From positions 124,001-188,000 of the forward strand of contig NZ_LPXO01000004.1 in the NCBI RefSeq assembly GCF_001482405.1: DNA of 64,000 nucleotides. Reading direction: 5' to 3'. The notes beneath the pieces were generated by a model. That model did not search any database. It had not been told where the DNA came from and saw only the letters and a list, made by a program, of their open reading frames with translations. Positions 29,284-64,000 of the stretch are shown here, piece by piece. The position numbers and the translations under genes were made by a program. Position 1 is the stretch's first letter; each line of letters starts with the position of its first letter. The stretch is from Pseudoponticoccus marisrubri. Lineage in GTDB: Bacteria > Pseudomonadota > Alphaproteobacteria > Rhodobacterales > Rhodobacteraceae.

Positions 29284-30015
29284 ATGGAGAGCAGGAAAAG
29301 CGCGCTGGTGATCAGCGCCCATGCGGCCGATTTCGTCTGGCGCTGCGGCGGGGCCATCGCGCTGCATGCCGAGAAGGGCATGGATGTCACCGTGGTCTGC
29401 CTGTCCTTCGGCGAGCGTGGCGAAAGCGCCCGGCTGTGGAAGGAGGGCAGGACCCTGGACGAGGTCAAGGCGATCCGCCGGGCCGAGGCCGAGGCGGCCG
29501 CCGCGGCGCTGGGTGTGCATCGGCTGGACTGTTTCGACCTTGGCGACTACCCGCTGGAGCTGACCCGCGCCGACAAGGACCGCCTCGTCGCGCTGATCCG
29601 CGAGGTGCAGCCCGCCTTCATGCTCAGCCATTCGCAATACGATCCCTACAACACCGACCACATGTACACCACGCAGGTGGCGCTGGAATGCCGCATGATC
29701 GCGCAGGCCTGGGGGCACGAGCCCGGCCAGCAGGTGCTGGGCGCGCCGCAGCTCTACCTGTTCGAGCCGCACCAGACCGAGCAGATGGGCTGGAAGCCCG
29801 ACACGTTCCTCGACATCACCCCGGTCTGGGAGCGCAAGCGCGCCGCGATGGAGGCGATGCAGGGGCAGGTCCACCTGTGGGACTACTACACCCGCGTGGC
29901 CGAGCAGCGCGCCAACCATTTCAAGCGCAATTCCGGCGGGCAGGCGGGCGGGCGCGACTGCCGCTATGCCGAGGCGTTCCAGTCTGTCTTTCCGCGCACC
30001 GTGGACGCGCTCTGA
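29284..30015 (+). CDS. galB: 4-oxalomesaconate hydratase-like PIG-L family protein
   Basis: This 243-residue PIG-L/LmbE-fold metalloenzyme has [18 protein letters not shown] in place of the usual AHPDDE, with His13 and Asp16 as likely metal ligands, and [11 protein letters not shown] further on. The HxADFVWR variant is the mark of GalB, which hydrates 4-oxalomesaconate to 4-carboxy-4-hydroxy-2-oxoadipate in gallate and protocatechuate 4,5-cleavage. The two following genes encode the matching aldolase and tautomerase, which supports the call. First gene of a tightly spaced run 29284-32671. Confidence 0.82.
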
Positions 30016-30037
30016 CCTCGTCACGAAAGGAGATCCC

Positions 30038-30709
30038 ATGGCCGTTGTCGTGCAGACCCCCGACCGCGCCGCACCCGATCTGGTCGCCCGGCTGGGCGCC
30101 GCGGGCGTGGCCACCGTGCACGAGGCGCAGGGCCGCACCGGGCTGATGTCGGCGCGCATGCGCCCGATCCAGCAGGATTTCGGCCTGGCCGGCACCGCCG
30201 TGACGATCAGCGCACCGCCCGGCGACAACTGGATGGTGCATGTGGCGATCGAGCAGCTGCGCGACGGCGACATCCTTGTCCTCGCGCCCACCGCGCCCTG
30301 CGACATGGGCTATTTCGGCGACCTGCTGGCCAGCTCGGCCATGGCGCGGGGCTGCCGGGGGCTGGTGATCGACGCGGGCGTGCGTGACACCCGCGAGTTG
30401 CGCGCTATGGGTTTTGCCGTCTGGTCCACCGCGATCTCGGCGCAGGGCACGGTCAAGGAGACGCCGGGCTCGGTCAACGTGCCGGTGGTCTGCGCGGGGG
30501 CGCTTGTGCATCCCGGTGACGTGATCGTGGCCGATGATGACGGGGTCTGCGTGGTCCCGCACGCGCAGGCCGCTACGGTGGCCGAGGCCGCCGAGGCGCG
30601 GCTGGACGCCGAGGCCGCCAAGCGCGCCCGACTGGAGGCGGGCGAGCTGGGGCTCGAACTCTATGACATGCGCGGAAGGCTGGCCGAGAAGGGCCTGCGC
30701 TATGAGTGA
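30038..30709 (+). CDS. galC: 4-carboxy-4-hydroxy-2-oxoadipate aldolase / oxaloacetate decarboxylase
   Basis: This 223-residue protein of the RraA/HMG-CHA aldolase fold has [19 protein letters not shown] at the N terminus, [12 protein letters not shown], and [19 protein letters not shown], whose Arg and Asp bind substrate and metal. It splits 4-carboxy-4-hydroxy-2-oxoadipate into pyruvate and oxaloacetate (LigK/ProA/GalC). AAGGAG precedes ATG 30038, and it overlaps the next gene by 8 bp. Confidence 0.88.
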
Positions 30710-31766
30710 CGGGGTCCGCTGCATGTGGATGCGCGGCGGCACCTCCAAGGGGGGCTATTTCCTGGCCGGTGACCTGCCGGCCGACCCGGCGGCGCGCGAC
30801 GCGCTGCTGCTGGGGATCATGGGCTCGCCCGATCCGCGCCAGATCGACGGCATGGGCGGCGCCGATCCGCTGAGCTCCAAGGTGGCGGTGGTGCGCCCCT
30901 CTGCGCGGGAGGGGGTCGATCTGGACTATCTCTTCCTCCAGGTCTTCGTCGACCGGGCCGTGGTCTCGGACGCGCAGAACTGCGGCAACATTCTTGCCGG
31001 CGTCGCACCCTTCGGGATCGAGCGCGGGCTGGTCGTGGCGCGGGACGGCGAGACGCCCGTGACCATCCACATGGAAAACAGCGGCCAGACCGCCGTGGCG
31101 CGCGTGCAGACCCCGGGCGGACGGGTCAGCTATGATGGCACGGCCCGGATCGACGGCGTGCCGGGCCAGGCCGCGCCGGTGCCAATCGCCTTTCGCGACA
31201 CGGCGGGCGCCAGCTGCGGCGCGCTCTTCCCCACGGGCCATGTCATCGACCGGATCGAGGGGGTGGAGGTCACGCTGATCGACAACGGCATGCCCTGCGT
31301 CCTGCTGCGTGCCGCGGATCTCGGGCTGCGCGGCGACGAGGCGCCGGAGGTGCTGGAGGGTGATGCCAAGCTGCGCGCCCGGCTCGAGGCGATCCGCCGT
31401 GCCGCTGGACCGATGATGGCCCTGGGCGATGTCACGGATGCCTCGGTGCCCAAGATGACGCTGGTCAGCCCGCCCCGCGCGGGCGGGGCGATCGCAACCC
31501 GGACCTTCATCCCGCATCGCTGCCACAAGGCGATCGGCGTGCTGGGCGCGGTCAGCGTGGCCACGGCCTGCCTGACACCGGGCGCCGTTGGCCACGACAT
31601 GGCCGCGATCCCCGAGGGGCCGGTCAAGGCGCTGCCGATCGAGCATCCGACCGGGGAAATGACGGTGCTGGGCCACGTGGAGGACGGCGAGGTCCGGCTT
31701 GCGGAGGTGCTGCGCACGGCGCGCAAGCTGATGGACGGCGTGGTCTTTCCCGCGCCGCCGCGGTGA
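30702..31766 (+). CDS. galD: PrpF-fold 4-oxalomesaconate tautomerase
   Basis: This 354-residue protein of the PrpF/DUF453 diaminopimelate-epimerase-like fold begins [20 protein letters not shown]; the MRGGTSKG segment and [16 protein letters not shown] with its Cys are the active-site blocks. Together with galB and galC next door it most likely isomerises 4-oxalomesaconate (GalD/LigU), rather than acting in methylcitrate metabolism, because no prpB/C/D genes are near. A second PrpF-like gene occurs at 43384. Confidence 0.85.
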
Positions 31767-31783
31767 GACAGGGGGACAGGGAC

Positions 31784-32671
31784 ATGCGGATCGCGTTCAT
31801 CGGGCTGGGCGAGGCGGCCAGCGCCTTCATCACCGGCTGGGGGCCGGAGCGCGCCGGGCAGATCACGGCGTTCGACCGCAAGACGGCCGATCCGGCCACG
31901 GCGGAGGAAATCACGGATCGGGCCGCGTCGCTGGGCGTGACCGCCTGCGCCAGCCCGGCCGAGGCGCTGGCAGGGGCCGAGCTGGTCTTCTCGACCGTCA
32001 CCGCCGATCAGGCCATCGCCGCGGCCGAGGCCTGTGCCCCGCACCTGCCGGAGGGCGCGCAATGGTGCGACCTGAACAGCTGCGCGCCGGCCTCCAAGGT
32101 GCATGCGGCGGGGCTCATCACCCGAGCCGGCGGGCGGTATCTCGACGTGGCGGTCATGGCGCCGGTGCATCCCCGGCTGAACATGGTGCCCTGCCTCGTC
32201 TCGGGGCCCGAGGCGCGGGCCATGGCGCCGGTGCTGGACGGTTTGCCCATGGCGCTGCGCGTGGTGGGCGACGCGGTCGGGCGTGCGTCCTCGATCAAGA
32301 TGGTGCGTTCGATCATGGTCAAGGGGCTGGAGGCGCTGACCGCGGAATGCACGCTGGCCGCGCAGGCCGCGGGGGTGGCGGACGAGGTGTTTCCCTCGCT
32401 GGCCGCCGCCTCGCCGCCCATCGACGTGCCCGCCCGCGCCGCCTACAATTTCGAACGCAGCCTGCGCCACGGCGCCCGGCGGGCCGCCGAGATGGACGAG
32501 GTCGCTCGGATGCTGCGCGACCTCGGCCTGCCCGATGCCATGGCGCGGGCCACCTCGGAGTGGCAGGCGCGGCTGGCCGCGACCGGCGTGACCCCGCCCG
32601 AGGGCGCGGATTTGCCTGACCATGACTGGTTTGCCGAGGCGATCCTGCAGGCCTTCGGACGAAAAGGCTGA
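31784..32671 (+). CDS. NAD(P)-dependent dehydrogenase with DUF1932 C-terminal domain
   Basis: This 295-residue protein has an N-terminal Rossmann fold (MRIAFIGLGEAASAF, GxGxxx) of the 6-phosphogluconate/3-hydroxyisobutyrate dehydrogenase family. The catalytic-region helix SSIKMVRSIMVKGLEALTAE holds a Lys in the expected place, and DUF1932-type sequence forms the C-terminal part. The substrate is not known. Its position right after galBCD suggests oxidation or reduction of a 2-oxo/2-hydroxy acid linked to that pathway. It ends 8 bp before a convergent gene. Confidence 0.8.
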   Translation: MRIAFIGLGEAASAFITGWGPERAGQITAFDRKTADPATAEEITDRAASLGVTACASPAEALAGAELVFSTVTADQAIAAAEACAPHLPEGAQWCDLNSCAPASKVHAAGLITRAGGRYLDVAVMAPVHPRLNMVPCLVSGPEARAMAPVLDGLPMALRVVGDAVGRASSIKMVRSIMVKGLEALTAECTLAAQAAGVADEVFPSLAAASPPIDVPARAAYNFERSLRHGARRAAEMDEVARMLRDLGLPDAMARATSEWQARLAATGVTPPEGADLPDHDWFAEAILQAFGRKG

Positions 32672-58460: not shown

Positions 58461-58625
58461 AGTCCCGAATTATCCACATAAAACCAACGATCTTGCGGGA
58501 ATTGTTTCCGATTTCGGCACAATGGCAGCTCCTTTTCGCTTCACACACGAACAGGAATTGCTAATGTGTTGATTATAGTAAATTTGCGCGCCCCGCTGCC
58601 AAACCGGGCGCGCACTGGGGGAAAC

Positions 58626-59246
58626 ATGAACCAAGGGACAGAGGCTGTGGCGAACCGCATCACCAAGGCCGTCGGCGCGATTGCGCTTGCTGCTCTCGCA
58701 GGTCTGTCGGCCATGTCGCCGGCCATGGCTGACGAGGCTGGACAGAACGCACCTTTCATCTCGACGCAGAACACGCGGACGATCGTGGGGGAGCAGTACA
58801 TCCCCGGGATCTGGGTCGACCCCGACGGGTGCGAGCACTGGGTCATGGATGACGGGGTCGAGGGCTACATGACGCCGCATGTCGACCGCAAGGGCATCCC
58901 GGTCTGCAACCGCGGCAATGTCTGCGGGGTCATGAACACCGACCAGTTCTTTGCCACCGACAGCCACCGGATCTCCAAGCACGGCCGCCACCGGCTGGCC
59001 GAGTTCTTCCGCAGCGCCTCGGCCACGGCCTACATCATCGCCGGCCATACCGACAGCCGGGCCTCGGACGCCTATAACATGAAGCTCAGCTACAACCGCG
59101 CGCTGGCCGTGGCGGGCGTGGGCAAGTCGATCGGCGCCAATATCGTCGACGTGCGCGGCTATGGCGAACGCCAGCCCGTGGCCAGCAACGCCACCCATGA
59201 CGGCATGGCCCGCAACCGCCGCGTCGAAATCATCTGCATCCGCTAA
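58626..59246 (+). CDS. OmpA family outer-membrane-associated protein
   Basis: This 206-residue protein has a signal peptide ending at about residue 35 (AMA-DE), a Cys-bracketed module at 61-94 (GIWVDPDGCEHW ... IPVC), and an OmpA peptidoglycan-binding domain at 105-206 containing IIAGHTDSRASDAYNMKLSYNRALAV and a terminal RNRRVEI. The OmpA domain should tether it to peptidoglycan. The 61-94 module recurs in the lipoprotein encoded next. GGGGGAAAC precedes ATG 58626. Confidence 0.88.
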   Translation: MNQGTEAVANRITKAVGAIALAALAGLSAMSPAMADEAGQNAPFISTQNTRTIVGEQYIPGIWVDPDGCEHWVMDDGVEGYMTPHVDRKGIPVCNRGNVCGVMNTDQFFATDSHRISKHGRHRLAEFFRSASATAYIIAGHTDSRASDAYNMKLSYNRALAVAGVGKSIGANIVDVRGYGERQPVASNATHDGMARNRRVEIICIR

Positions 59247-59264
59247 GGCCCGGGGGACATACCG

Positions 59265-59579
59265 ATGCAATTTACCAAGATCTTCCTCGCCCTCGCCGCC
59301 GCGGGCAGCCTTGCCGGCTGCGTCGACGTGCCGATCGGCCCGGACAAGAGCCAGGACGTCAACCTGATCGACCGCGACGACCTGACCGGCATGAAGGCCG
59401 GCATCTGGGTCGACCCGAATGGCTGCGATCACTGGATCATCGATGACGGGGTCGAGGGCTATCTCTCGGCACGGCTCGACAAGTACGGCAAACCGGTCTG
59501 CTCGGGCACCGCGCCCCCGACCATCGCCACGGGCGATTTCAAGGGCGGCTCGACATCGGTGATCGGCGACCCGCTCTAG
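59265..59579 (+). CDS. Lipoprotein sharing a module with the OmpA protein
   Basis: This 104-residue protein has a lipobox ending LAGC (Cys19). Residues 46-79 (GIWVDPNGCDHW ... KPVC) match the 61-94 module of the OmpA protein at about 60% identity by eye, including both Cys and the HW-x-x-DDGVEGY core. The rest is a short Thr/Gly-rich tail. It follows the ompA-like gene by 18 bp and ends at a strong terminator, so the pair forms a two-gene operon. Confidence 0.8.
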   Translation: MQFTKIFLALAAAGSLAGCVDVPIGPDKSQDVNLIDRDDLTGMKAGIWVDPNGCDHWIIDDGVEGYLSARLDKYGKPVCSGTAPPTIATGDFKGGSTSVIGDPL

Positions 59580-59600
59580 GCCCGGCCACAGGACATGACG

Positions 59601-59637
59601 GGACCGCGCCGGTGTGCTGCCGGCGCGGTCCTTTTTT
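59601..59637 (+). terminator. Strong Rho-independent terminator
   Basis: GGACCGCGCCGG (59601-59612) pairs perfectly with CCGGCGCGGTCC (59620-59631) around a 7-base loop, followed by six T. It ends the ompA-like/lipoprotein operon. Confidence 0.92.
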
Positions 59638-59813
59638 GTCTCAGGCGGGTGACATTTTCGCGCCGAGCCTTGCGTGACCCCGCCCGGCTTGGCACCATAT
59701 CTTGTAACAGCGCTGTCCGGTCGGATTCGACGCGTCGCGGTCTGCCCGGATCGGGCCGCGACAGCCGTGTCGGGCCGGGCAGGCGCGCACCGCTTCTTGC
59801 GCCGGAGACATGC

Positions 59814-60791
59814 GTGACCACAGGCACCCTGACCAATGCCGTTCTCGAATTTCCAGACAACCGACTGCTGATCGACCTGTGCGGCGAGTATGACCGCAAC
59901 CTGACCGATATCGAAAGCCGCACCGGCGTGCAGATCCTGCGCCGCGGCAACCAGCTGGCGGTGCACGGAACCGAAGAGACCATCGCCGCCGCGACCGAGG
60001 TGTTGCAGGCGCTCTACGAACGGCTGGAGCAGGGCCGCGACGTGGATCCCGGCGATATCGACCGCGAGTTCCGCATGGGCGAGGAAGCGCAGCTTGACGA
60101 CCAGCTCGAGATGTTCGGCGCCGGCCCGGTCGAGATCAAGACCCGCAAGAAGCTGATCGAGCCGCGCACCGACGCGCAGAAGGCCTATGTCACGGCGCTA
60201 TTCGCCAACGAACTGGCCTTCGGCATCGGCCCGGCCGGCACCGGCAAGACCTACCTCGCCGTGGCGGTGGGGGTGAACATGCTGATCACCGGGCAGGTCG
60301 ACAAGATCATCCTGTCGCGCCCCGCGGTCGAGGCCGGCGAGAAGCTGGGCTATCTACCGGGTGACATGAAGGACAAGGTCGATCCCTACATGCAGCCGCT
60401 CTACGATGCGCTGAACGATTTTCTGCCGGGCAAGCAACTGGCCCGCATGCTCGAGGAGAAGGTGATCGAGATCGCGCCGCTGGCCTTCATGCGCGGGCGC
60501 ACCCTGTCCAATGCCTTCGTGGTGCTGGACGAGGCGCAGAACGCCACCTCGATGCAGATGAAGATGTTCCTGACCCGCCTGGGCGAGGGCTCGCGCATGG
60601 TGATCACCGGGGACCGCACGCAGGTCGACCTGCCGCGCGGCGTGCCCTCGGGGTTGGCGGACGCGGAACGGCTGCTCGACCGCATCAAGGGCATCTCGTT
60701 CAACTACTTCACCGGCAAGGACGTGGTCCGCCACCCGCTGGTCGCCGCCATCATCGAGGCCTACGAGGCCGATATCGCGCGCTCGTCCTGA
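59814..60791 (+). CDS. PhoH family ATPase
   Basis: This 325-residue protein has an N-terminal KH-like region (about 18-65), Walker A GPAGTGKT, the SRPAVEAGEKLGYLPGDMKDKVDPY block and Walker B FVVLDEAQN with GDRTQVDLP, all typical of PhoH/YbeZ. In E. coli YbeZ interacts with the endoribonuclease YbeY. GTG 59814 is the start, with GGAG six bases upstream. The partner ybeY lies 2.1 kb downstream, after an inserted gene. Confidence 0.92.
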   Translation: MTTGTLTNAVLEFPDNRLLIDLCGEYDRNLTDIESRTGVQILRRGNQLAVHGTEETIAAATEVLQALYERLEQGRDVDPGDIDREFRMGEEAQLDDQLEMFGAGPVEIKTRKKLIEPRTDAQKAYVTALFANELAFGIGPAGTGKTYLAVAVGVNMLITGQVDKIILSRPAVEAGEKLGYLPGDMKDKVDPYMQPLYDALNDFLPGKQLARMLEEKVIEIAPLAFMRGRTLSNAFVVLDEAQNATSMQMKMFLTRLGEGSRMVITGDRTQVDLPRGVPSGLADAERLLDRIKGISFNYFTGKDVVRHPLVAAIIEAYEADIARSS

Positions 60792-60994
60792 GCGCGCGTC
60801 CCGCCGGCGGTGATTCGTCCCGCGGCTGCGCGGTTGTCGCGCCTTCGGTCACAATGTCCGCGGAAGCGCCCGGGCTGTTTCCGCAGGCGCAACGACCTCC
60901 GGGTATTCCGAATATCCCTGCCATGATCCCGCCGCCTTCGGGTTAACGTTGCGGCAGCCAGTACGCTGTCACGCGCGCGCAAGGGGACAGGACC

Positions 60995-62842
60995 ATGCCG
61001 GAACTCTCGACGGGCGGAGCCCTTTCGATCGTCGCCCACCAGGACGATGACATCCTCTTCATGAACCCCGATATCGACGCCAGCATTGGCGCGGGCGAGG
61101 CCAACACCACGGTCTTCGTGACCGCAGGCGATGCCGGGCTTGGCGCTGCGTATTGGGGCGGGCGCGAGACCGGGGCCAAGGCCGCCTATTCGCTGATGAC
61201 TGGTGTGGAGGACTGGGTCGACGAGCTGGTGCCGGTCGAGATCGGGGGCCGCACGGTGGAGCTGGCCAGCAGCCATCCCGAGGGGATGCCCGAGGTGCGG
61301 CTCTACTTCATGCGCCTGCCCGATGGCGGCGGCAACCTTGCCCCGGATGACCAGCAGCAGCTGGCCCGGCTCGAGGCCGGCACGCTTGAAACCGTCACCG
61401 CTGTGGATGGCAGTGCCAGCTATGACCGCGACGAGCTGGTCGAGACGATGACCGCGCTGCTTGACCTGCACGCGCCAAACGAGGTGCGCCTGCAGATCGC
61501 CGACGGCGCGAATGCCGCGGGCGAGCATACCGATCATGTCAGCGCCACCCGTCTGGCCGAGGAGGCGCTGGAGGATCACGCGGGCGAGTCCTTTACCGTC
61601 ACGCAATACGTGCAATACGCCTCGCGCGACATGCCGGCCAATCTCGACCCGGCCGAGGCCGCCCGGTCGCTGGCGATCATGGAGGCTTATGCCGAACATG
61701 ATCCCGGCGTCTTCGACAGCAGCGGTGCGATGGCGCAGGTCTATGTCGACTGGACGGCGCGCCAATATATCGACCGGGTGGTCGAGGTCGATCCCGACAA
61801 CCCGTGGACCGTGGACGATACGGTGATCGACGCGCCGGAACTGCCCGAAGACGATGGCGCGGGGTTCGCGCTTTCCGGGCCCGACGGCTATCTTTTTGAC
61901 GTGAACGGCAGCGGAGAGATCACGCCGAAGGACTGGTTCACGCCCTCGCTCGACGATGCCTGGGACCGGAACGACGATTACATCTACGAGGTCACGCGCA
62001 TCCGCATCGACGAGGATGGCAGCCGCACCGAGGAGGCGCTGCGCTTCGACACGGTGGCAGAAGGCCGGCTGGCCCTGATGGACGGGGCGGAGGATGACGC
62101 CGATCCGGTGGAGCCCGATCCCGTCGATCCTGACCCGGTCGACCCCGTAGAGGCGGACCCGGTCGATCCGGACCCATTGCCGTTGTCCTACAGCCTTGAC
62201 GGGCCCGATGCCTTCCTCTTCACCATTGATGGCACCAGCGGGCAGATCGCACCGCAGGACTGGTTCACGCCGTCGCTGGACGATGCCTGGGACGCGGACG
62301 AGGATCACGTCTACGAGCTGACCCGCATCGCCACCGCCGAGGATGGCAGCCGCTCTGAAACAGCGCTGTCCTTCGAGACCACCGCCGAGGGCGAACTGAC
62401 GCTGCGGGGCGAGGCCGCGATCGATCCCGCGCTTGACCCCGATCCCACGCCCGAACCGGACCCGGACACCGACCCCGACCCGGGTGACAGCCCCGCGACC
62501 TACTCGCTGGACGGGCCGGATTCGCTGCTCTTCACCATTGCCGGGCAGACCGGCGAGATCGGCACCAAGGACTGGTTCATCCCCAGCTACGACGATGCCT
62601 GGGACCGGAACGAGGACCATGTCTACGAGATCGCGCGCGTGGCCACCTATGAGGACGGCGCGTCCACCGCGGAAGAGCTGCGCTTCGAGACGCTGCCGAA
62701 TGGCCGCTTCGTGCCCCTGACGGACGGGGCAGGCGAAGAGGCGGCGGCCGCGCTGATGTCCCTGATCGCCCTGCCCGGGGAGGGCGACATGCCGCCCGAG
62801 GACGCGGAAGAGGCGGACGAGACCATGGACCTCGCGCTGTGA
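60995..62842 (+). CDS. PIG-L-like domain fused to three C-terminal repeats
   Basis: This 615-residue acidic protein has an N-terminal PIG-L/LmbE-type deacetylase domain (about 1-265) with VAHQDDDILF (His15, Asp18) and GEHTDHVS (His178, His181) as likely zinc ligands. After it come three copies of a 73-residue repeat at about 290-363, 398-471 and 502-575. Each has LxGPDxxLF, an acidic turn, (K/Q)DWF(T/I)PSxDDAWD and xYExxRI...EDG. They are separated by Asp-Pro-rich linkers (364-397 and 472-501). The repeats look like small beta-sandwich, cadherin-like calcium-binding units. No N-terminal signal is seen, so type I secretion or a cytoplasmic role are both possible. GGGGACAGG precedes ATG 60995. 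It lies between phoH and ybeY. Confidence 0.82.
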   Translation: MPELSTGGALSIVAHQDDDILFMNPDIDASIGAGEANTTVFVTAGDAGLGAAYWGGRETGAKAAYSLMTGVEDWVDELVPVEIGGRTVELASSHPEGMPEVRLYFMRLPDGGGNLAPDDQQQLARLEAGTLETVTAVDGSASYDRDELVETMTALLDLHAPNEVRLQIADGANAAGEHTDHVSATRLAEEALEDHAGESFTVTQYVQYASRDMPANLDPAEAARSLAIMEAYAEHDPGVFDSSGAMAQVYVDWTARQYIDRVVEVDPDNPWTVDDTVIDAPELPEDDGAGFALSGPDGYLFDVNGSGEITPKDWFTPSLDDAWDRNDDYIYEVTRIRIDEDGSRTEEALRFDTVAEGRLALMDGAEDDADPVEPDPVDPDPVDPVEADPVDPDPLPLSYSLDGPDAFLFTIDGTSGQIAPQDWFTPSLDDAWDADEDHVYELTRIATAEDGSRSETALSFETTAEGELTLRGEAAIDPALDPDPTPEPDPDTDPDPGDSPATYSLDGPDSLLFTIAGQTGEIGTKDWFIPSYDDAWDRNEDHVYEIARVATYEDGASTAEELRFETLPNGRFVPLTDGAGEEAAAALMSLIALPGEGDMPPEDAEEADETMDLAL

Positions 62843-62883: not shown

Positions 62884-63384
62884 ATGCTGACCGAAACCCT
62901 CTGCGAGGACGACCGCTGGCAGGCGGCCGACCTGCCAAGGCTGGCCGAGACCGGCGCGCAGGCGGCGCTGCGCCATCTGGGCCTCGACCCCGCCGAATTC
63001 GAGATCGCCGTGCTGGGTTGCGATGACGCGCGCATTGCCGAGCTGAACGGCGATTTCCGGGACAAGCCGCGGGCCACCAACGTGCTCAGCTGGCCCTCCG
63101 AGGATCTGGCCCCCGACACGCCCGGCGCCGCGCCACACCCGCCCGAACCGGACGGGTTCGGATCGCATCATCTGGGCGATCTGGCGCTGGCCTTCGACAC
63201 CTGTGCGCGGGAAGCCGCCGACCTGGGCTTGCCCCTGGGCGACCATGTCACACATTTGACGGTTCACGGGGTGTTACATCTTCTGGGTTACGACCATATG
63301 CGTGACGCGGAAGCCACGTTGATGGAACGGTTGGAGGGCGAGATACTTGGCAAATTGGGCCTCTCCGACCCATATAGGGACTAG
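62884..63384 (+). CDS. ybeY: Endoribonuclease YbeY
   Basis: This 166-residue protein has the metal site HLTVHGVLHLLGYDH (H-x3-H-x5-H), along with LNGDFRDKPRATNVLSWP, both diagnostic of YbeY, an rRNA-processing and quality-control endoribonuclease. A small insertion near 75-95 is family-variable. CGGAGACCCGA precedes the ATG. It is followed after 9 bp by corC. Confidence 0.94.
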   Translation: MLTETLCEDDRWQAADLPRLAETGAQAALRHLGLDPAEFEIAVLGCDDARIAELNGDFRDKPRATNVLSWPSEDLAPDTPGAAPHPPEPDGFGSHHLGDLALAFDTCAREAADLGLPLGDHVTHLTVHGVLHLLGYDHMRDAEATLMERLEGEILGKLGLSDPYRD

Positions 63385-63393
63385 AAGGGCCGG

Positions 63394-64000
63394 ATGGCTC
63401 GTGATTGGTACGGATTGATGGGCGAAACGGACGGATCGTCTAACGCGGCGCAGGGCGCGCCGACCGATGACATCGAAAGCGAAGAGGCACGGCCTCCGGG
63501 TATGTTCCGGCGGTTCGTGGGGTTGTTCAACGGGGGCGACGGGAACGGCGCCGAGGGCGATGACGACGCCCCGCGGCTCGAGCGCCCCTCGCACGGGTTG
63601 ATCAATCTGCGACGCATGCGGGTCGAAGACGTGGCCATCCCCAAGGCCGAGATCGTCGCCGTGCCCGACACCATCACCAAGGACGACCTGGTCAAGGTGT
63701 TCCGCGAAAGCGGGATGACCCGCCTGCCGGTCTATGACGGCACGCTCGACACGCCCGTGGGCATGGCGCATCTCAAGGATTTCGCGCTCAGCCACGGCTT
63801 CAACGGCACGTCCAGCCGATTCAACCTCAAGCGCATGGTGCGTCCGCTGCTCTTCGTGCCGCCCTCGATGCCGATCGGGGTGCTGCTGACCAAGATGCAG
63901 ACCGAACGGCGGCACATGGCGCTGGTCATCGACGAATATGGCGGCGTGGACGGGCTGGTCACGATCGAGGACCTGATCGAACAGGTTATCGGCGAGATCG
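63394..64000 (+). CDS. CorC/HlyC family CBS-domain protein, 3' end outside window
   Basis: The first 202 residues are visible. After an acidic N terminus, MRVEDVAIPKAEIVAVPDTITKDDLVKVFRESGMTRLPVYDGTLDTPVGMAHLKDF and PPSMPIGVLLTKMQTERRHMALVIDEYGGVDGLVTIEDLIEQVIGEI form the CBS pair of CorC (YbeX). It belongs to the phoH-ybeY-corC-lnt operon order common in proteobacteria. The open frame continues past base 64000. Confidence 0.92.
   Translation, partial: MARDWYGLMGETDGSSNAAQGAPTDDIESEEARPPGMFRRFVGLFNGGDGNGAEGDDDAPRLERPSHGLINLRRMRVEDVAIPKAEIVAVPDTITKDDLVKVFRESGMTRLPVYDGTLDTPVGMAHLKDFALSHGFNGTSSRFNLKRMVRPLLFVPPSMPIGVLLTKMQTERRHMALVIDEYGGVDGLVTIEDLIEQVIGEI

Follow-up and report, generated by a model that had tools for sequence, protein, structure and literature searches.

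What does the gene that separates phoH from ybeY in the genome of the alphaproteobacterium Pseudoponticoccus marisrubri encode, and does its location bear on its function? The gene lies close to the end of the window, that is, the whole stretch of 64,000 nucleotides analyzed here (contig NZ_LPXO01000004.1, positions 124,001 to 188,000). The first-pass annotation described it as a PIG-L-like enzyme with three repeats inserted in an RNA-processing operon and proposed that it could be a new class of exported deacetylase or a cargo acquired at this site. The reading favored here, which we regard as moderately probable when taken as a whole, is that of a sugar de-N-acetylase with cadherin-like modules that is exported by type I secretion.

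The gene and its place between phoH and ybeY

The end of the window comprises the following features:

59595..60791, +, phoH, flank (Pfam PhoH, 306 bits; longest ORF)
60792..60994, +, gap of 203 bases between the phoH stop and the gene (sequence)
60995..62842, +, PIG-L / cadherin-like repeat gene (ORF with ATG start, 615 aa; Pfam PIG-L above cut-off)
62884..63384, +, ybeY, flank (Pfam YbeY, 102 bits)
63394..64000, +, corC-like ORF, flank (opens at 63394 and is cut by the window end; named by place and look)

The Pfam matches confirm PhoH and YbeY as the neighbors, and the interruption of about 2 kb with an upstream region of about 200 bp, noticed at first pass, measures 2092 bases from the phoH stop to the ybeY start and 203 bases, respectively. 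The true phoH start is probably located downstream of the longest-ORF start, given that homology in relatives begins around residues 68-79. The gene is co-directional with phoH and ybeY and ends 41 bases ahead of the latter. That it is a real gene follows from the presence of the same start region, followed by PIG-L and then by the repeats, in five relatives at the same site. The 203-base gap shows little conservation among the five sequences compared, save near the start codon, and scans of this gap for promoters and terminators yielded no promoter-like or terminator-like match. Upstream of phoH, at 58566-59579 (+), the window encodes an OmpA-like protein and, next to it, a small protein with which it has in common a motif of the GIWVDP-GC-HW--DDGVEGY type (both named by eye); relatives of this pair sit between miaB and phoH in four of the same-site relatives (L053-L056).

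In a sample of 149 genomes compared for the phoH-ybeY interval, 138 carry both genes on one contig and strand. The distance between them is at most 400 bases in 123 genomes and 551-4240 bases in 13, with one pair far apart and one reversed; the two genes are thus normally adjacent, as had been stated, and most of the sampled genomes of the family lack the PIG-L/repeat gene here, as had been anticipated. Two of the 13 wide gaps hold this gene (genomes G000 and G093) and 11 hold other ORFs, as judged by eye, the shortest gap (G133) being without a long ORF. These 11 genomes do not overlap with the 18 in which a match to the protein was found among 394 genomes of the family. The other content in 11 of the 138 genomes (L155-L165) suggests that the phoH-ybeY junction is a tolerant insertion point.

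The phoH flank accompanies the gene in five relatives (L053-L057), in four of which ybeY then follows; in Marimonas lutisalis (L054), ybeY comes only after a further 1.6 kb. The fifth relative is that of Marimonas arenosa, whose contig breaks off within the gene; a second contig of this genome (L036) contains the repeats and then ybeY. In a phylogenetic tree of 42 PIG-L sequences, a single branch (SH-aLRT 90) separates the six sequences from the phoH site from all others, and one site change suffices; this grouping indicates that the gene's presence at the site predates this one genome. A recent arrival as mobile cargo at a tolerant position would agree with the varied content of the wide gaps and with the scattered distribution of the family within the Rhodobacteraceae sample, where the PIG-L part was matched in 15 of the 394 genomes; nevertheless, given the tree, we consider this explanation distinctly unlikely. 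Judged from the same tree, the gene is not a private recent acquisition of this genome.

Nine neighbors of three relatives located elsewhere (L058, L060, and L068) are housekeeping, regulatory, and transport genes with no common theme. An operon role was rejected as the explanation for the gene because it is absent from the operon in most of the sampled genomes and because these nine neighbors at three sites are unrelated. Taken together, the varied content of the gap, the unrelated neighbors elsewhere and the poorly conserved upstream region imply that the site tells little about function; the position between phoH and ybeY looks incidental, and the special meaning initially attached to it finds no support.

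The PIG-L domain and the cadherin-like repeats

The 615-residue protein consists of a PIG-L domain followed by three related repeats, with Asp/Pro linkers between the repeats, and an acidic tail:

60995..61792, +, PIG-L catalytic domain, residues 1-266 (Pfam match over residues 10-191; AlphaFold2; VIA)
61034..61051, +, AHQDDD motif, residues 14-19, including H15, D17 and D18 (H15, D17, D18 and D19 invariant in 28 aligned sequences)
61523..61537, +, EHTDH motif, residues 177-181, including H178, D180 and H181 (these three invariant in 28 aligned sequences)
61865..62071, +, cadherin-like repeat 1, residues 291-359 (repeat profile, alignment, AlphaFold2)
62072..62188, +, Asp/Pro linker 1 (composition; pLDDT <50 over residues 366-392)
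62189..62398, +, cadherin-like repeat 2, residues 399-468 (repeat profile, alignment; solo model with pLDDT 96.8)
62399..62500, +, Asp/Pro linker 2 (composition; pLDDT <50 over residues 481-497)
62501..62710, +, cadherin-like repeat 3, residues 503-572 (repeat profile, alignment, AlphaFold2)
62720..62839, +, acidic C-terminal tail, last 40 residues, candidate type I secretion signal (composition)

The Pfam PIG-L family (PF02585) matches the protein with 39.3 bits against a gathering cut-off of 28.2 (41.3 bits in the genome-wide search), and an NCBIfam search with the same protein gave zero matches above the cut-off. In an alignment of 28 PIG-L sequences, which includes the window protein together with sequences from Rhodobacteraceae, Actinomycetota, and Saccharibacteria, residues H15, D17, D18, H178, D180, and H181 show no variation, so that the active-site residues are intact and the proposed N-terminal PIG-L domain with plausible zinc ligands stands. 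We take these residues to correspond to the HxDD and HxDH metal and catalytic residues of PIG-L deacetylases. The AlphaFold2 model of the whole protein has a mean pLDDT of 82.8, with values mostly above 85 in the PIG-L domain. When this model was compared to known structures with VIA, the top 22 entries (Z 13.4-15.8) were PIG-L deacetylases, LnmX, GalB, and TT1542, the next entry having a Z of 8.0. Among these are BshB (6ull, Z 15.8), N,N'-diacetylchitobiose deacetylase (3wl3, Z 15.7), MshB (Z 14.2), and the hydratase GalB (Z 15.0); GalB and TT1542 are presumably kin of the PIG-L fold. A phmmer search of the PDB with the whole 615-aa protein found no match, and a profile of the PIG-L domain retrieved only a weak match to LnmX (E 0.15) amid unrelated chains; accordingly, the assignment of the fold rests on Pfam and structure.

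Given the match to GalB, this modeled fold alone need not mean deacetylation. The protein could be an exported adhesin or matrix lectin in which PIG-L catalysis has been lost or changed, for instance to a hydratase activity or a sugar-binding role, and cadherin-like modules do dominate other long proteins; but the HxDD and HxDH residues are invariant throughout the 28 aligned sequences, whereas the probable GalB of the window has AHAAD in place of the former, and we accordingly view such a loss or change as unlikely. The activity predicted for the protein is likely to be genuine de-N-acetylation, whereas for a polysaccharide as the substrate the chances appear to be about even. The GalB candidate is a second PIG-L-fold protein of the window (29284-30012, +; 243 aa), with AHAAD replacing HxDD. 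Its gene shares sequence with the longest ORF of the next one (29966-30706, +), which encodes a 4-carboxy-4-hydroxy-2-oxoadipate aldolase of the LigK type (338.5 bits, cut-off 304.5). The protein is probably a hydratase of the GalB type that acts in the gallate/protocatechuate 4,5 pathway.

Repeats 1 and 3 are, respectively, 62% and 59% identical to repeat 2 at the protein level, and at the DNA level the three repeats form a three-copy family of 180 nt, in which the reference copy has 76% and 68% identity with the two others; this likeness is well beyond chance. The three repeats of 73 residues initially described are thus correct in number, but the matched unit is 69-70 residues long; the two Asp/Pro-rich linkers are present between the repeats as described.

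Several lines of evidence, each of them weak on its own, relate the repeats to cadherins. A profile of the repeat compared to PDB sequences yielded 17 matches at E<=10, all to cadherins or protocadherins, with a best E of 0.037, although these matches are built from short weak stretches, the best single one in the top match having an i-E of 17. The structure of a single repeat was predicted with confidence (pLDDT 96.8) using 32 aligned copies. The 50 entries shown in the VIA comparison of this model are all chains of the cadherin family or complexes with one, the best match having Z 6.6 and an rmsd of 1.5 over 63 residues, a weak score if taken by itself, as values of Z below 8 may reflect no more than a widespread arrangement. 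Foldseek gave non-significant results for the isolated repeat, the first row being the unrelated 3h51 (E 0.82), followed by cadherin-23 (E 0.87, TMq 0.67), and with the model of the whole protein, the list at E<0.001 consisted of PIG-L-fold proteins and cadherins, including cadherin-23 (5un2, E 2.7e-5).

The Pfam cadherin search of the three window repeats gave zero matches at E<=10. PF00028 (Cadherin) matches 4 of the 32 aligned repeats at E<=1, and PepSY matches more of them (6 of 32), with a best E of 0.0049 that equals the best for Cadherin; in two repeat-bearing relatives, L048 and L068, Cadherin remains below its cut-off of 28.8 bits (25.9 and 27.2 bits, respectively). PepSY, SQAPI (5.8e-5, below the cut-off), Metal_resist, and EF-hand were set aside as identities, being in our judgment chance matches, since nothing else supports them. 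The 615-aa protein contains neither DRE nor DxNDN, the canonical calcium motifs of cadherins, and a WDx[DN]x[DN] motif is found instead in all 32 aligned repeats; the latter is a plausible calcium loop, and from its conservation we infer that the repeats may bind calcium. With the profile, the AlphaFold2 models, and the fold comparison taken together, the repeats, which by prediction adopt a cadherin-like fold, are classified here as cadherin-like and not as members of PF00028.

In a sample of 398 genomes of the phylum, the repeat profile detects 29 genomes at E<=0.001, in frames of 416 to 5783 codons, most of them long. Ten of these loci were taken up; L170, L173, L175, and L177 were left out, and the frames of four of the other six were analyzed with Pfam. 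Cadherin_4 is above the cut-off in all four, Cadherin in three. The expectation that the repeats also occur in other proteins of secreted type is therefore upheld by these four long frames, confirmed as cadherin-domain proteins, and by two relatives that combine PIG-L, RTX, and the repeats (see below); the idea that the repeats are a class of their own did not survive the comparisons above.

Predicted export and the protein family

The reading frame is open for just 16 codons upstream of the ATG (631 versus 615 codons), which leaves no room for an N-terminal signal peptide; this agrees with the earlier observation of a secreted-type layout that lacks an N-terminal signal, as do the relatives in which RTX and the same repeats occur. 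The protein contains no Cys and has a pI of 4.05. Cys-free proteins account for 23 of 35 relatives, some frames of which perhaps begin at too early a start, compared to 16 of 222 control proteins, and a pI below 4.2 is found in 5 of 181 codon-filtered control proteins from the loci. The last 40 residues include 12 acidic and 0 basic ones and end with MDLAL. Tails with at most one basic and at least eight acidic residues among the last 40 are found in 27 of 35 family members (8 fail) and in none of the codon-filtered controls (0 of 41 from the window and 0 of 181 from the loci). A looser definition (hydrophobic end with a nearby acid) captures 31 of the 35 tails of the family; of the controls, which here are longest ORFs, antisense frames included, it captures 81 of 236 as well. 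The 35 tails include the frame-broken L059 and the Hint-like L082; open 3' ends, frames shorter than 300 aa and the distant loci L086, L088, L095, L103, L120, and L131 are left out of the count. Recognized by composition only, the tail is a candidate type I secretion signal; no RTX nonapeptide is found in the 615-aa protein.

The genome encodes a type I secretion pair, PrtD (675 bits against a cut-off of 510) and the adjacent HlyD (357 bits against 209), with the PrtD gene (positions 30672-32297 of the contig) about 153 kb from the PIG-L/repeat gene on the same contig. Searches of 58 family loci (some overlapping) with PrtD and HlyD detected no type I secretion ATPase or HlyD next to the gene, the only hits being four partial ATPase matches (best E 2.7e-15). 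There are 119 RTX matches in this genome; of 13 closed RTX-rich frames read in it, 7 end with DDFVF, DASDFLF (two), DDLVLV, DDLVLA, SDDVIL, or VDDLSF, and the remaining 6 have other endings.

A scan of genome contigs with the PIG-L alignment produced 262 confirmed stretches, of which 80 were kept; among these 80, the closest come from Sagittula marina (76%), Marimonas, Thetidibacter, and other Rhodobacteraceae, with Actinomycetota and Saccharibacteria further down. The S. marina relative, located at the same site, is 76% identical in the PIG-L part and 62% over residues 1-612. In the relatives from Rhodobacteraceae, the same PIG-L domain is combined with RTX, FG-GAP, or cadherin-like modules. 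Thus, the protein of Sulfitobacter mediterraneus (L076) contains an N-terminal PIG-L domain, FG-GAP, 14 RTX stretches, three repeats and an acidic tail, and that of Oceaniglobus trochenteri (L068) an N-terminal PIG-L domain, 8 RTX stretches, three repeats and an acidic tail; these two proteins provide a link to type I secretion. L048 and L050 are RTX proteins that bear the repeat, with no PIG-L domain detected in them.

Several individual copies deserve mention. In Planktotalea (L059 and L061), stops or a frame change occur in or after the PIG-L part, so the gene may be decaying in some relatives, unless these are assembly errors. The PIG-L protein of Sulfitobacter undariae has an end that by eye resembles the C-terminal part of one of the RTX proteins encoded in the genome from which the window comes (L082 and L152); the segment shared by the two is, we presume, Hint-like. 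A contig labeled Enemella evansiae TN21-6 (Actinomycetota; L081) carries a relative of the Rhodobacteraceae type that is grouped among these in the tree, and the record is probably misnamed or contaminated. A plasmid search returned 24 records, matching the PIG-L part only, from Streptomyces, Paraburkholderia, and others.

Outside Rhodobacteraceae, all 16 rows from Actinomycetota show a strongly hydrophobic stretch ahead of the PIG-L domain, and in 20 of the 24 rows from Saccharibacteria and other Patescibacteria, 440-730 residues with strongly hydrophobic stretches precede it (both judged by hydropathy only). Pfam analysis of L095 and L103 (Actinomycetota) and L120 (titled Proteobacteria) revealed DUF7402 above the cut-off in all three and F5/8 type C also in L103 and L120, and no cadherin-like repeats were found in these three proteins. 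The hydrophobic N-terminal parts, together with DUF7402 and the F5/8 type C module, give this subfamily of PIG-L proteins an extracytoplasmic look, with export routes that differ. In proteins of Saccharibacteria and other Patescibacteria of about 710-1000 aa with strongly hydrophobic stretches (L088-L092, L097, L100, L101, and others), PIG-L is mostly placed at the extreme end; these are perhaps surface glycan enzymes fused to their own membrane part.

The absence of an N-terminal signal is also compatible with a cytoplasmic PIG-L enzyme or amidase that is co-expressed with phoH and ybeY and has a role in RNA processing, its repeats binding proteins inside the cell, and the shared direction of the three genes, the 41 bases before ybeY, and the occupation of this site in six sequences fit with it. 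Such a protein would, however, be difficult to reconcile with the RTX blocks and extracellular-type modules of the relatives, the low pI and lack of Cys, the 123 of 138 genomes in which phoH and ybeY lie within 400 bases with no such gene between them, and the unrelated neighbors elsewhere, and we regard it as highly improbable. Export of the type I kind is, conversely, the firmest of our predictions and is held with high confidence.

Under the preferred reading, a PIG-L-type, presumably zinc-dependent de-N-acetylase would be exported unfolded, from the cytoplasm straight to the outside, through the PrtD/HlyD type I system of the genome by means of an uncleaved C-terminal tail. Outside, the three cadherin-like modules, possibly stabilized by calcium and carried on the Asp/Pro linkers, would tether the enzyme to the cell surface or to a polysaccharide outside the cell, where its N-terminal PIG-L domain would remove N-acetyl groups from amino sugars. 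More tentatively, and with somewhat less than an even chance of being right, we propose that PIG-L deacetylases secreted by type I systems make up a modular family in Rhodobacteraceae that is as yet undescribed. Its catalytic domain would be constant and its further modules, among them cadherin-like, RTX, and FG-GAP ones, freely exchanged, and the acidic tail, which includes a short hydrophobic box (LM..L), might serve as an RTX-independent secretion signal.

Should these predictions be correct, sugar de-N-acetylases leave the cells of Rhodobacteraceae by a route, and have an architecture, on which no paper was found in the open-access literature, which yielded none on a PIG-L deacetylase with cadherin or on PIG-L with type I secretion. 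Removal of N-acetyl groups alters the charge of polysaccharides, and enzymes of this kind could serve to adjust the biofilm matrix or to attack polymers of amino sugars; the family would also supply RTX-free candidates for defining the requirements of the type I secretion signal. Specialists in PIG-L enzymes would find this mildly surprising; every part is already known.

Comparison with known systems

The protein is a new mix of known parts, and the new class of exported deacetylase suggested at first pass holds in part: PIG-L combined with secreted-type repeats stands, whereas a repeat class of its own does not. The known PIG-L/LmbE deacetylases are, as a rule, small single-domain enzymes that are not known to carry secretion parts. 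BshB, MshB, and N,N'-diacetylchitobiose deacetylase have the same fold (Z 14-16) and catalytic residues as the PIG-L domain of the 615-aa protein, in which, by contrast, repeats, linkers, and an acidic tail follow it in the same chain. The PIG-L proteins of Actinomycetota that bear DUF7402 and F5/8 type C modules belong to the same subfamily (35-42% identical over the domain) and, by hydropathy, also have an extracellular design, but differ in their hydrophobic N termini and the lack of a C-terminal tail of the type I secretion kind. The Pfam Cadherin and Cadherin_4 repeats of long surface-type bacterial proteins resemble the window repeats in sequence pattern and predicted fold; the latter differ from Pfam Cadherin in the shorter unit (~70 residues), the WF..P...WD core, scores below the cut-offs, and the Asp/Pro linkers in between.

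In overall design, the closest comparison is offered by the Rap family of Rhizobium leguminosarum. In the passages cited, the PrsDE type I system of this bacterium exports glycanases and lectins with cadherin-like domains, encoded by dispersed genes (PMC9298526, PMC2275737), and its substrates are many, unlinked, and partly RTX-free (PMC9298526, PMC2275737, PMC5061743). As described there, the Rap proteins (PlyA/PlyB, RapA2, RapD; PMC9298526, PMC2275737, PMC5061743) resemble the 615-aa protein in joining polysaccharide-active or lectin domains to cadherin-like ones, and their type I export without an N-terminal signal and scattered genes parallel its predicted route. RapA2 likewise has no Cys and no RTX match; the Rap family differs in that the catalytic domain is a glycanase and not PIG-L. 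Membership of the protein in this family was considered and dropped, as RapA2 (Ra/CHDL) shows no significant match to the repeat profile (0.8 bits, compared to 8.2 for the best of 1000 shuffles). With no detectable sequence kinship to RapA2, the likeness is one of design, not of membership.
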